From Onishia taeanensis (GTDB lineage Bacteria; Pseudomonadota; Gammaproteobacteria; Pseudomonadales; Halomonadaceae), in assembly GCF_900100755.1 (NCBI RefSeq), contig NZ_FNCI01000001.1:1-64000 (forward strand): 64,000 nt of DNA. Reading direction: 5' to 3'. Below the pieces are notes generated by a model, which was given only the letters and a program-made list of their open reading frames with translations, made no database searches and was not told where the DNA came from. Within the stretch, counting starts at the first letter, position 1. Each line of letters begins with the position of its first letter. The translations under genes were made by a program, and so were the position numbers. Positions 7,822 through 12,355 of this stretch are shown piece by piece.

Positions 7822-8600
7822 GCGTCTTCCCCCATATGACCGCTGACGCCGCCACCCAGATAGGCTTCGCGGACCTCTGCATTCTGGCGAATCTCGCTCA
7901 TCGGGCCAGAGGCAATCAGTTCACCGTTGGCCATCACGTGCACCGGGTCGCAGAGTTGTGAGATCAGGTCCATATCGTGCTCGATTAGGCAAAAGGTATA
8001 GCCACGCTCGGTGTTGAGACGGCGGATCGCCTCGCGGATCTTGCCGAGCAGCGTGCGGTTGACGCCGGCACCCGGCTCATCCAGTAGCACCATCTTGGCG
8101 TCGGTCATCATGGTCCGACCGAGATCCAGCAGCTTCTTCTGGCCCCCCGAGAGATTGCCGGCCAGTTCATCGGCGACATGCGAGATTTCCAGGAAGTCGA
8201 GCACTTCGTCGACCCGCTCGAGGACCTTGGTATCTTCCTCGCGAACTCGGCCCCAGCGTAACCAGCTGTTGAAGAGGTTTTCACCGCTCTGTTCAGGGGG
8301 GACCACCATCAGATTCTCGCGCACTGTCATCTGCGAGAACTCATGGGGAATCTGGAAAGTGCGCACCAGCCCCCGGTGGAAGAGTTCATGGGTAGGCAGG
8401 CCGGTGATGTCCTGGCCGTCGAGCACGATGCGGCCGCTGGTAGGCGGGAAGAGGCCGGCGACGATGTTGAACAGGGTGCTTTTGCCGGCGCCGTTGGGGC
8501 CGATCAAGCCGGTGATGCTGCCCTGGGCAACCTCGAAGGACACATCCTTCACCGCCTGCAAGCCGCCGAAGGACTTGGAGACGTTTTCGATTCGGATCAA
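7818..8600 (-). CDS. livG: Branched-chain amino acid-type ABC ATPase LivG
   Basis: A 260-residue ATPase with Walker A GPNGAGKST, the signature LSGGQKKLLDLGRTMM, Walker B MVLLDEPGAGVN, and the switch His in LIEHDMDLI. DEPGAGVN is typical of LivG. The start is a TTG at 8600 (protein MIRIENVSKSFGG), supported by GGAG eight bases upstream; no ATG is better placed. It is the first gene of the livGFHM operon. Confidence 0.9.
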   Translation of the reverse strand: MIRIENVSKSFGGLQAVKDVSFEVAQGSITGLIGPNGAGKSTLFNIVAGLFPPTSGRIVLDGQDITGLPTHELFHRGLVRTFQIPHEFSQMTVRENLMVVPPEQSGENLFNSWLRWGRVREEDTKVLERVDEVLDFLEISHVADELAGNLSGGQKKLLDLGRTMMTDAKMVLLDEPGAGVNRTLLGKIREAIRRLNTERGYTFCLIEHDMDLISQLCDPVHVMANGELIASGPMSEIRQNAEVREAYLGGGVSGHMGEDA

Positions 8601-8827
8601 GGTGGGAGCTCCTGCCTTGAGATTGTTCTTGAAATTATGATGGAGCGGGCAGCACTAGCCTTTAGGCAGGCTCGCCCAATGCGAAGACAGTATCGCCGAG
8701 CACGAGGCGTATCAAGGCGACGAACAGACGAGATTTAAACGCTTGTCTTAAGGCAGGGGGCAGCAGCCGCTTCGCCGGCTGTCATCGAGAGGTTTCAGCT
8801 AGGGTATAAAAGTGACCGAGCCCGGCA

Positions 8828-9080
8828 TGTCTGCGCGTCGACAACTACGCTCTGGAAGGCTACGACCTCTCGCGCCCCGAGCTGCTTCCTGGTAGAGGTG
8901 GGCGATGAAGCCGGCGTGGTCGGACCGATAATCGAAGGCGACCTGCTGGTGGTCGACGAGCAGAAGCCTGTACAGCACGATGGTCTGGTGGTGGTGGAAC
9001 TGGACGGCGAGAAGCGGCTGTTCAGCAGCCACCGGATCGGTGTGCTGATGCGGCTGATGCCCACCGCCGGGCATTACTGA
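8828..9080 (+). pseudogene. Frameshifted remnant of an S24 (LexA/UmuD-type) peptidase-domain protein
   Basis: Two reading frames joined by a +1 shift near 8883-8890 give a continuous product: LRVDNYALEGYDLSRPEL in the first frame, then CFLVEVGDEAGVVGP and EGDLLVVDEQKPVQHDGLVV in the second, ending at the TGA at 9078. The block EGDLLVVD followed by DGLVVVELDGEKRLF is the beta-rich core of S24 peptidases (LexA, UmuD and phage repressors). The Ser of the catalytic GDSM motif is not visible (VVGPIIEGD instead), and no good start codon remains. I read it as a decayed UmuD- or repressor-like gene. The family is clear, but which member is not. Confidence 0.65.
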
Positions 9081-9122
9081 CCCAGGCGCTTTCTTTATGG
9101 CATCCAGTCGCAAACGCAGGCT

Positions 9123-9935
9123 CTAAGCCCCGACCTGCCCATGAACACCTGTTTCACTGTTAGCCATTATCATTTGATCATCACGAAAGATTCCTTCCGG
9201 ATAGTTTTTGTGCGGCTCCATCCAAGGGGTGAAAGTAATGTGACTCATGCCTGGATTAACAATGTCGCCAAAGCTAATTATTCCTAGCGATGGCTGCTTT
9301 AGCTTGATTGATAGCCCAAATGGAAATGCTTTCATGGAGCTGTATAGCTCACCACCATGTTTTAATTTTTTTAGTGTTGATGTTGAAGCTATTGTTTGAA
9401 TTATTACGCTTTTCCTTTTTTTGTAAGGCCATATTCTTATTTCGTGATTGTCGAGATCCTCCCTTTCTCCCAAGACGAATTCTCTCAGCGGTGTGAAGTA
9501 ATCTGTTTCTTCAAGTGGATTCATACAGCTTTCTTGGTTGGAGACGGCTAGCAGGTGACCAATAGTTGCTCTCAAGAAGCTGCTAGAATCACATGGTATC
9601 TTTTGCTTTTCTATGAGGTTACCGCCACGGTTAAGGAATTTGTATAGGTCGTTAATTGTTTTCTTTAAATCTTTGTATATATGGTCGATCTCGCCTAGTG
9701 TTTCGCTATTGCATTTCTGGCAAATAGTTTTAAAATATATTCCAGACAGGCCCTTTTTCTTTTTTATTTTTTCTTGCATCGTTCCTTCAAAGAGAGAGCA
9801 ATATAAGCTGTCCCCCGGGGTTAGTAGGGACTTCGGTGGTACGTGATCTTTTTTTAGCTCCCCATAGCTACCACATATCCTACAATACCCTTCGGATATT
9901 CCTTTGTCATTGAAATATGAAGTCCGTCCCTGCAT
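9123..9935 (-). CDS. HNH-nuclease-like protein, horizontally acquired
   Basis: A 270-residue protein whose N-terminal third carries a zinc-ribbon HNH pattern: CRICG near residue 19, KKDHVPPKS about nine residues later, ICQKCNSETLGEIDH near residue 75. The His of DHVPP, the Asn of KCNS and the His of EIDH fit H...N-x8-H, and the two Cys pairs would bind a structural metal. The rest (about 170 residues) matches no domain I know. The start at 9935 is chosen for GGAG seven bases upstream; the frame stays open 16 codons further. Base composition is strikingly AT-rich compared with all neighbours, and both flanks are broken genes, which points to recent transfer. A role as a restriction-like or anti-phage nuclease is possible but unproven. 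Confidence 0.75.
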   Translation of the reverse strand: MQGRTSYFNDKGISEGYCRICGSYGELKKDHVPPKSLLTPGDSLYCSLFEGTMQEKIKKKKGLSGIYFKTICQKCNSETLGEIDHIYKDLKKTINDLYKFLNRGGNLIEKQKIPCDSSSFLRATIGHLLAVSNQESCMNPLEETDYFTPLREFVLGEREDLDNHEIRIWPYKKRKSVIIQTIASTSTLKKLKHGGELYSSMKAFPFGLSIKLKQPSLGIISFGDIVNPGMSHITFTPWMEPHKNYPEGIFRDDQMIMANSETGVHGQVGA

Positions 9936-10005
9936 TGATAAACTCCGTACTGATTCTTTTGTTGTCTTAGTTAAGCATCTCAAGACTAGGTCGTACCACC
10001 TCTGG

Positions 10006-10245
10006 TTATCGGGTGCCCATCACCTCCATCTCCACCGAGCTGGTCAGCGCGTGGTCGCTGAGTTCGTGACTGACCTCGTCGATCAGCCTGGCGGTGTCGC
10101 CGATCTCGCGCTTCCAGTCGTTCAGCGTGACCGGCATCTCCAGGGAGATCTCGGGGCGGCAGTCGACGAGGGCCAAGTGAAGGACGAGCCGCCGCGAGGC
10201 AGGCGCTGGCATTCGCTCCGGGCGGCGGCGAAAGCGTCGGCCTTG
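10006..10245 (-). pseudogene. Frameshifted C-terminal fragment of an unrecognised protein
   Basis: On the minus strand one frame reads ATKADAFAAARSECQRL and the next frame continues with LALVDCRPEISLEMPVTL, LNDWKREIGDTARLIDEVSH and ALTSSVEMEVMGTR before a TAA at 10008-10006. Each part has coding-like composition, but no single frame spans both, so a frameshift is likely. I do not recognise the family. It borders the AT-rich HNH-like gene and looks like the surviving end of a gene disrupted at this site. Confidence 0.4.
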
Positions 10246-10281
10246 GTGGCTTAAGTGGGGCAGCCCCATACCGAGCGTGCC

Positions 10282-11052
10282 CTAAATCCCCGCCCACCAG
10301 TTGTAGCCGCGGTCTTCCCAATAGCCACCGCGGCCCCGGCCGATATGCGTGAAGCTCTCGACCAGTTCGATACGCATGACGTACTTGGCCATCTTGTAGC
10401 CGAGTTGGCGTTCGGCGCGCAGTCGCAGCGGGGCGCCGTTGGCGATGGGCAGGTCGGCACCGTTGAGGGCGTAGGCTAGCTGCGTCTGCGGATGATAGGC
10501 CTCGAGCATGTCCAGGCTTTCGTAGTAGGCGTCGCCGCCGCGGTAGCGGTCGGCGCAGTGGAAAACGACGAAGCGCGCCTGGTCGCGGACCCCGACCCGG
10601 TCCAGCAGGTCGCCGAGCACTACACCCTTCCACTGGCCGATGCAGCTCCAGCCCTCGACGCAGTCATGGCGGGTGATCTGAGTGCGCGCCGGCATGGTCT
10701 TGAGTTCGTCGAGGGATAAGGCCTGTGGCTTGTCGACCAGGCCGCCGATCTCGAGCCGCCAATCGCGAAAGCCGCCTTCTGCAAGCTTCCGGTAGTCCTC
10801 TTCGTCGGGATTGGTGGTGCCGTTGGCGCGGAAGGTGGGGGCGATATCGGCGGGTGTGAACTCGCGGGCCAGCGACTGTCGGGAGGCCAGCAGCCGCTGG
10901 GCCTGCTGGGTCAGGGCGCTGCTGGCATCGAACAGCTTGCTCATGGCGTCGCTGCGCGTCAGCGCATCGCAACCGGCGAGCAGGGTCGCGCCGCCGGCCA
11001 TCAGGGAGCGAGTCAGGAAACGGCGGCGGCCGCTATCGGTCGGTTTAGTCAT
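10282..11052 (-). CDS. Periplasmic molybdopterin-dependent oxidoreductase (sulfite-oxidase fold, MsrP/YedY-like)
   Basis: A 256-residue protein of the oxidoreductase molybdopterin-binding family. The N-terminus has a twin-arginine motif (RRRFLTRSLMAGG) and then LAGC, which may be a lipobox. The Mo-ligand Cys is in RHDCVEGWSCIGQWKG, and LLDRVGV plus ALNGADLPIANGAPLRLRAERQLGYKMAK are typical of the fold (given here in part as ANGAPLRLRAERQLGYK). The start at 11052 has AGGAG eight bases upstream; longer in-frame forms lack a site and would hide the Tat signal. It overlaps the cytochrome b gene before it, which very probably supplies electrons. The substrate is unknown: it could be a methionine sulfoxide reductase-like repair enzyme or another oxo-transferase. 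Confidence 0.85.
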   Translation of the reverse strand: MTKPTDSGRRRFLTRSLMAGGATLLAGCDALTRSDAMSKLFDASSALTQQAQRLLASRQSLAREFTPADIAPTFRANGTTNPDEEDYRKLAEGGFRDWRLEIGGLVDKPQALSLDELKTMPARTQITRHDCVEGWSCIGQWKGVVLGDLLDRVGVRDQARFVVFHCADRYRGGDAYYESLDMLEAYHPQTQLAYALNGADLPIANGAPLRLRAERQLGYKMAKYVMRIELVESFTHIGRGRGGYWEDRGYNWWAGI

Positions 11053-11941
11053 CGCGGGGCTCCTGCTGCGGGGGCAGCGCCGAGGAAGGGGCATGGGGTT
11101 GCGCAGGGGGTAGCTCAGGGTGAAGCGCATAGCGTCCGGTGATCATCGAGCGCAGGTTGTTGAACATACCGGAAACCATCACCAGGGCGAGATGCACGAG
11201 GAAGAAGGCCAGTAGGCCGATGGCGCAGATGAAATGCAGAGTGCGCGCGCTCTGGCGACCGCCGAATGCGTCCAGCAGCCAGGGCCAGGCGGCATCCATG
11301 GTCGGCGACATGGTCAGGCCCGTGAGCACCACCAGCGGCAGCAGCCCCAGCAGCACCAGCAGGTAGGTGAGCTTCTGCAACAGGTTGTAGTGGCGGGCCT
11401 CTTCGCCGCGGGGGAAACGCAGCCGAACATGGTCGCGAATCGTCTCGCCGAGGTGGCGCCATTCGTCACGGCGGGGCAGTAGGCGCCGCTTGAGCTGGCC
11501 GCTGATTACTAGATAGAAAAGGTAGGCGGTGAGCATCGGCGCGAAGATCCACCCGGCCAGGAAGTGCCATTGGCGCCCCTTGCTGAGCCAGCGGGGGCCG
11601 GGCAAGGTCGCCCAGGCGGGAAAGGCGCGACGCTCCAGGTCGTCGGGCGGGCCGGATATTCCCAGCACGCCGGTAGTATCGAAGCGGTAGCCGCCGATGC
11701 GGGTGATGCCTTGCCAGGCGCCGTTGGCGTCGCGCTCGGCGCCAATCGATAGTGCCGGGCTGTCGAAGTGCGAATCCTTGCCCCAGTAGAGCGCCGGATG
11801 GGCGTTGAAGATCTGCAGGCCGCTCATCAGCAGGATGATCAAGCAGGCGAAATTCACCCAATGCCAGAGGCGGGAGAAGGCGGTATGACGCTTGATGAGC
11901 GTTGCTGCTTGGCCCGGGCGAGCCTTGCCGAAGAGCGGCAT
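11045..11941 (-). CDS. Cytochrome b561-type membrane electron-transfer subunit
   Basis: A 298-residue membrane protein with four or more hydrophobic segments and paired His residues in them (HTAFSRLWHWVNF, WHFLAGWIFAPMLTAY, HFICAIGLLAFFLVHLALV), the pattern of di-heme cytochrome b561/formate-dehydrogenase-gamma-like subunits. A soluble loop of about 90 residues sits between the first and second segments. The start has no very strong site, but MPLFGKARPGQAATLIKRH is the only sensible N-terminus. The stop lies inside the start region of the molybdoenzyme gene, so the two form a translationally coupled pair that probably passes electrons from quinol to the periplasmic enzyme. Confidence 0.82.
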   Translation of the reverse strand: MPLFGKARPGQAATLIKRHTAFSRLWHWVNFACLIILLMSGLQIFNAHPALYWGKDSHFDSPALSIGAERDANGAWQGITRIGGYRFDTTGVLGISGPPDDLERRAFPAWATLPGPRWLSKGRQWHFLAGWIFAPMLTAYLFYLVISGQLKRRLLPRRDEWRHLGETIRDHVRLRFPRGEEARHYNLLQKLTYLLVLLGLLPLVVLTGLTMSPTMDAAWPWLLDAFGGRQSARTLHFICAIGLLAFFLVHLALVMVSGMFNNLRSMITGRYALHPELPPAQPHAPSSALPPQQEPRDD

Positions 11942-12028: not shown

Positions 12029-12240
12029 TCACATCTTGTCGTCTTCCTCCATCATCTCGTCTTCGCCCATGGCGTCGTGATCCATGTGGTCTTCGCCCAT
12101 GGCGTCATGATCCATCTTGTCTTCGCCCATGGCGTCGTGATCCATCTTGTCTTCGCCCATGGCGTCGTGATCCATCTTGTCTCCGCTCATGGCGTCATGG
12201 TCCATCTTGTCTCCGCCCATGGCATCGTGCTCCATGCTCT
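12029..12240 (-). repeat. 30-bp tandem repeat, about six copies, inside the repeat-protein gene
   Basis: Six 30-base units encode the decapeptide repeats between about 12054 and 12232. On the plus strand the core reads CCATGGCGTCGTGATCCAT. Middle copies are nearly identical at DNA level, which suggests recent slippage or homogenisation, so copy number may vary between strains. Outer copies have diverged (GGDK and SGDK variants). Confidence 0.85.
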
Positions 12241-12355
12241 CGCCGTCCATCATCGGGTCTTCATGCGAGTCGGCGAGGGCGGTCACCGGCAGCAGCAATG
12301 CACCGCTCAACAGGGCAGCGAAGAGGGCAGTCTTGGGGTGGGCTAGCTTGATCAT
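12029..12355 (-). CDS. Secreted Met/His/Asp decapeptide-repeat protein, probably metal-binding
   Basis: A 108-residue protein with a clear signal peptide (residues 1-28, ending VTALADS). The mature part is almost entirely six tandem copies of a ten-residue unit, consensus M-D-H-D-A-M-G-E-D-K, then an acidic Met-rich tail (MMEEDDKM). It has no Cys or aromatic residues and is highly acidic. Met, His and Asp at fixed spacing suggest periplasmic metal sequestration (Cu, Ag, Ni or similar), as in Met-rich copper proteins, but this is inference. The start has GGAGG six bases upstream, and a terminator follows. The gene is divergent from an OmpR-type response regulator 182 bases away, so that system may control it. 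Confidence 0.8.
   Translation of the reverse strand: MIKLAHPKTALFAALLSGALLLPVTALADSHEDPMMDGESMEHDAMGGDKMDHDAMSGDKMDHDAMGEDKMDHDAMGEDKMDHDAMGEDHMDHDAMGEDEMMEEDDKM

Follow-up and report, generated by a model that had tools for sequence, protein, structure and literature searches.

EcoKMcrA, the HNH nuclease of prophage e14, is a stand-alone type IV enzyme of ~280 amino acids (aa) that restricts phage and carries its HNH domain at the C-terminus. PtuB, the HNH defense nuclease of Septu, acts together with the ATPase PtuA. HNH proteins also lie near the packaging genes of many phages, and HNH is a common homing endonuclease type. In P2-type phages, two hotspots of defense genes have been described: the gpA-gpQ locus, which holds old/tin (PMC9122126), and the fun locus (PMC9519451).

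Here, we analyzed an HNH-family gene of Onishia taeanensis in the first 64,000 nucleotides of contig NZ_FNCI01000001.1 (hereafter, the window). We consider it probable, with some reserve, that this gene is a moron: prophage cargo that encodes a single-gene anti-phage nuclease.

RESULTS

An intact HNH-family gene of low GC content

The HNH-family gene occupies positions 9123..9935 on the reverse strand and is intact, based on the open reading frame (ORF) listing and an alignment of relatives. The reverse-strand frame is open from 9123 to 9983, its longer form beginning with TTG at 9983, but the alignment favors the ATG at 9935 as the start, which with the stop at 9123 gives a protein of 270 aa. 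A GGAG ribosome-binding-like site (9943..9946, reverse strand) is found in the sequence 7 bases upstream of this ATG, and a promoter scan of the window returned none scoring above chance. The gene is present in a single copy in the genome. Its GC content is 41%, with values of 0.444, 0.367, and 0.407 at codon positions 1, 2, and 3, compared with 0.661, 0.505, and 0.848 for the neighboring chromosomal gene at 10282-11130. Local GC reaches a minimum of 0.38 at the gene against 0.60-0.68 in the surrounding chromosome, in line with the original prediction of a low-GC gene in a GC-rich chromosome. Elsewhere in the window, the ORF at 12029-12355 (reverse strand) encodes a 108-aa protein that consists mainly of MDHDAMGEDK-type repeats and is probably secreted.

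The gene lies in a decayed P2-like prophage remnant

Decayed phage genes border the HNH-family gene on both sides. An S24-peptidase-like gene at 8820..9072 (forward strand), recognized by comparison with intact copies, has a frameshift and an in-frame TGA, and its DNA is 78% identical to that of an intact S24-like gene at another place in this genome (L045). The other border, at 10021..10260 (reverse strand), is the decayed C-terminus of P2-type gene D (gpD, baseplate hub/late-control), split across two frames. At two further places in this genome, intact gpD paralogs adjoin intact S24-like genes. The earlier description of the flanks as two frameshifted fragments was thus right about their decay; they are not ordinary chromosomal genes but phage gpD and an S24-like gene. 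A reading of both flanks as a UmuDC operon was rejected, the right piece being gpD and not umuC.

Homology to six other genomes of the genus stops at ~8745-8779, left of the remnant, and right-hand chromosomal homology picks up at 10275 in G164; G163 shares this right junction. Because of these limits of chromosomal homology and the phage identity of the flanks, we consider 8770..10275 (no strand assigned) to be a prophage remnant cut down to the slot borders and their cargo. No attachment-site-like repeats were found in 8600-10400.

The closest ortholog, on IMG/VR contig L143, is 74% identical and encodes 270 aa; an intact gpD on that strand immediately precedes it. Downstream come, in order, the decayed remains of an S24-like gene, a fragment of gpD, a gene of the metallo-beta-lactamase fold, a further gene that Pfam does not match, and an S24-like gene that is intact. 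The position of this ortholog, immediately after an intact gpD of a prophage contig, is most simply explained if the gene and its flanks entered the Onishia chromosome together as one prophage cargo block; the idea that the gene had arrived at an already decayed site was not borne out. Comparison of the window and L143 genes gave a pN of 0.137 and a pS of 0.78 (saturated), a ratio that spans their entire divergence and by which a very recent loss of function cannot be dated. With pN far under pS, the protein has been under strong purifying selection across this divergence. The metallo-beta-lactamase-fold gene and its probable membrane-protein neighbor (L143:7361-9089) form a second cargo item of this slot.

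The gene was present at this locus in only one of seven genomes of the genus, so that no GC-matched, intact ortholog holds the place across the genus, consistent with the original prediction. The same remnant in G163 carries an OLD-type gene where the window has the HNH-family gene: L039:1929-3698 encodes a 589-aa OLD/GajA-like ATPase, bordered by the same relics of gpD and S24, which amounts to a swap of cargo. Between the same pair of chromosomal genes, G164 carries unrelated genes (L040:1424-5033), one of which resembles the N-terminus of a restriction-type nuclease, indicating that the chromosomal site itself is variable. With other genes in G164 and the OLD-type gene in G163, the empty-site comparison within the genus found no clean empty site; G165-G168 are without the right chromosomal flank.

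An HNH core joined to a C-terminal domain without a PDB match

The HNH core spans residues 18-84 (9684..9884, reverse strand) and, as defined by alignment and hhalign, comprises CxxC, D30-H31-x2-P34, CxxC-N76, and D84. Among 41-42 diverse sequences, the invariant residues include C18, C21, D30, H31, P34, C72, C75, N76, and D84. Profile-profile comparison by hhalign with HNH_5 proteins of related genomes gave a probability of 94% (E 9e-8), with C18-x2-C21, D30-H31-x2-P34, C-x2-C-N, and the following Gly aligned. By sequence profiles, the protein thus has the Cys pairs around (D/E)H...N that mark the HNH superfamily (beta-beta-alpha-metal type), although its score against Pfam HNH_5 (PF14279) itself was 18.5 bits, below the curated cut-off of 27.5. 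An HNH core, the lack of which would have counted against the original prediction, is therefore present at the level of sequence profiles. Of the H...N-x8-H pattern initially proposed between the two Cys pairs, the core stands on the hhalign result, and the last His (H85) does not, as it is not conserved whereas D84 is. By analogy with other HNH enzymes, we take D30 and N76 to be metal ligands, H31 the general base, and C18, C21, C72, and C75 zinc ligands. Nuclease chemistry is well supported as a prediction for this HNH-family protein.

The C-terminal domain (residues ~105-270; 9126..9623, reverse strand) has conserved G126-H127, W169, P205, and P246. AlphaFold2 modeled the window protein with a pLDDT of 85 and an E. 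coli relative with a pLDDT of 93.5 and a pTM of 0.92. Fold searches of both models against the PDB matched no solved structure, and a profile search against PDB sequences gave no match; a fold search of a viral library gave one significant match only, to an uncharacterized protein. The ~170 C-terminal residues had been described as hard to place, and the ~165-residue domain indeed went unmatched in both the fold and the profile searches of the PDB. As modeled and searched, residues ~105-270 appear to form a domain without a known PDB counterpart, a missing match being no proof of a new fold.

Distribution and genomic settings of the family

The protein aligns over its full length with members of phrog_21495 (PHROGs v4, function listed as unknown), which it matches with an E value of 2.9e-35 over residues 8-214, and it belongs to this family. 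Relatives were identified in six other Halomonadaceae genomes, in P2-like phage pro147, and in 60 plasmid records, which include conjugative plasmids and one plasmid copy from Nostoc. A similar stretch was present in 228 of 5,426 complete E. coli genomes, 135 of which had ≥80% of the gene. Scans of genome and viral contigs with a single sequence found no relatives, but alignment-based scans detected them in 32 viral contigs and in 32 genome contigs, chiefly of Gammaproteobacteria with some Betaproteobacteria. One 3-kb contig labeled Streptomyces (L190) carries a copy closely resembling Pseudomonas ones and is probably contamination. RefSeq labels the family members of L010, L016, and L020 "chaperonin," a label for which we found no sequence support.

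The relatives occur in varied settings. Some lie in the fun locus of P2, where tail sheath and tail fiber genes flank them, and others lie between portal and gpA (L168-L170) or beside portal (L165); both published P2 defense hotspots (PMC9122126 and PMC9519451) are thus occupied. Others lie beside gpD (the window, L143, L154, and L157), in lambdoid prophages, where they run opposite to their neighbors, near SLATT/SMODS (CBASS-type) genes, in a type I restriction locus (L202), or on plasmids, adjoining IS26. No recurring partner gene was found around the relatives, which extends to the family the earlier observation that the window gene is without a partner.

A variable gpD-S24 slot in Halomonadaceae

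The S24-like protein was found in 85 of the 275 Halomonadaceae genomes, and in 53 loci, one of which (L039) is a remnant like that of the window, gpD lies on the same stretch as the S24-like gene, always in convergent orientation. The interval between them ranges from 0.2 to 4.7 kb (median, 1.6 kb), and its mean GC is 0.51 compared with 0.66 for gpD, the interval being lower in 53/53 loci (Wilcoxon p 2e-10). The 84 slot proteins, of which 83 come from these loci and one from the window, fell into 51 clusters. By Pfam and PADLOC, the slots contain OLD/GajA-like ATPase, KAP NTPases, and C5 methylases with Eco29kI or Vsr nucleases, as well as HicA/HicB, PIN-type, and IrrE-like proteins, reverse transcriptases, and endonuclease-I-like proteins. 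Not all of the genes look defensive, since a chemotaxis-receptor-like protein and lipoprotein-like proteins are also carried. The interval is thus a cargo slot in the sense of a variable gene between conserved P2-type genes, and the window and L143 hold the HNH-family gene there. Its gene content and its likeness to the two published P2 hotspots make it a candidate defense hotspot.

Decayed gpD and S24 pieces abut one another inside three slots (L107:6054-6279, L129:6025-6198, and L143:6895-7222), and single decayed pieces of gpD or S24 lie inside those of L089, L093, L113, and L122. The occurrence of such pieces within slots suggests that gpD-cargo-S24 units stack by recombination. Many cargo proteins in the slots of L045, L046, and L083-L142 were without a family match (for example, L112:2601-4966, L126:3751-4746, and L113:6890-8640) and are candidate new defense or toxin-antitoxin genes.

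DISCUSSION

Proposed role and alternative explanations

We propose that a P2-like prophage of Halomonadaceae carried the HNH-family gene in the variable gpD-S24 slot, and that this prophage then decayed to the two slot borders while its cargo stayed intact. The zinc-stabilized N-terminal HNH core would nick or cut nucleic acid, most likely phage DNA, in a metal-dependent reaction, and the C-terminal domain of ~165 residues may provide target recognition or an infection trigger, in which case neither a partner gene nor a methylase would be needed. The putative nuclease would shield the lysogen from other phages. Because the frame is intact while both neighbors are decayed, we infer that the gene was kept after prophage decay as a benefit to the cell. 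It is the location of the gene that points to an anti-phage role, and the substrate and trigger named here are guesses. The original prediction spoke of anti-phage or selfish cargo; the setting is typical of the former, and a selfish (homing) role found no support.

The gene travels mostly in prophages, and it could instead serve its own phage as an HNH nuclease aiding packaging, host or competitor DNA breakdown in lysis, or counter-defense, as the frequent placement of phage HNH proteins near packaging genes might suggest. This explanation is rather unlikely, as the positions of relatives in unrelated phages have nothing in common, the gene often runs opposite to its neighbors, and plasmids and phage-free chromosomal islands carry it as well; moreover, the gene is intact here although the phage has decayed. 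The sporadic distribution and odd GC would also suit a selfish, free-standing homing endonuclease that spreads by cutting the gene-less allele, and HNH is a frequent type among such enzymes. Homing needs one conserved target site, whereas members of the family occupy six or more kinds of position that have no relation to one another, not positions in or beside one conserved target gene. The window gene lies outside any conserved gene, intron, or intein, and other genomes carry other cargo at its site rather than an uncut allele, so that we consider homing very unlikely.

A toxin or stress nuclease, abortive and self-targeting, that is controlled by its own C-terminal domain rather than using that domain for recognition would require no partner if auto-inhibited, and toxin-antitoxin pairs do occur among the slot neighbors in other prophages. 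No antitoxin-like neighbor was seen in any context examined, and we judge this explanation quite unlikely; it overlaps abortive-infection defense and is in part the same hypothesis as ours. The decay of both neighbors and the promoter scan might suggest that the gene is a dead relic, decaying with its surroundings and functionless in this strain. We give this very little probability, since, although its neighbors are frameshifted, the gene has an open frame of 270 aa, a ribosome-binding-like site, and every family-invariant residue, and since pN is far under pS relative to L143, a value that again covers the entire divergence.

Beyond the proposed anti-phage nuclease at this locus, we tentatively advance a broader proposal, to which we give somewhat less than an even chance. 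The family would be a new stand-alone anti-phage family that couples an HNH core to a C-terminal domain that serves in recognition and has a fold outside the PDB, discriminates phage from self without a partner, and uses at least three P2-type slots. Among these, the gpD-S24 slot would be an unreported defense hotspot that grows by stacking of units and leaves decayed gpD and S24 fragments behind. If true, the family would represent an uncatalogued single-gene defense candidate present in E. coli and on conjugative plasmids, and the mapped gpD-S24 slot would be a source of further defense genes of halophilic bacteria. The C-terminal domain is a concrete structural target, having a high-confidence model and no solved counterpart.

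Comparison with known systems

PADLOC 2.0.0 did not match the window protein and matched 4 of 41 relatives only at E 0.008 or weaker; NCBIfam gave no match for the window protein, and a literature search by accession found none for the family. The family appears to be uncatalogued in the libraries and openly available papers searched, which does not by itself establish priority. Two members of phrog_21495, E. coli WP_000161640 and pro147 ORF9, are homologous over the full length, with the same HNH residues and C-terminal domain, but they are ~30% identical to the window protein and come from other slots and hosts. Members of phrog_21495 are labeled "hypothetical," "chaperonin," or "metal-binding" and are equally uncharacterized. 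Proteins of Pfam HNH_5 share the CxxC...DHxxP...CxxCN core by hhalign, from which the window protein differs by its sub-cut-off score, a longer loop between the Cys pairs, and the extra C-terminal domain.

Like EcoKMcrA, the window protein is a stand-alone prophage HNH protein of similar size; its HNH core is N-terminal, however, and is joined to an unrelated C-terminal domain, so that it does not have the McrA-type order of a C-terminal HNH after a modified-base-binding domain. It shares the HNH core with PtuB but not the PtuAB arrangement, there being no ATPase neighbor in the window and none as a recurring partner of relatives. There is precedent for lone nucleases in P2 hotspots, and the window resembles the two hotspots of PMC9122126 and PMC9519451 in that a single variable cargo gene sits between conserved genes of P2 type. 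It differs from them in its slot, a third one that extends from gpD to the S24-like gene in Halomonadaceae and is absent from the descriptions in the accessible text of PMC9122126 and PMC9519451.
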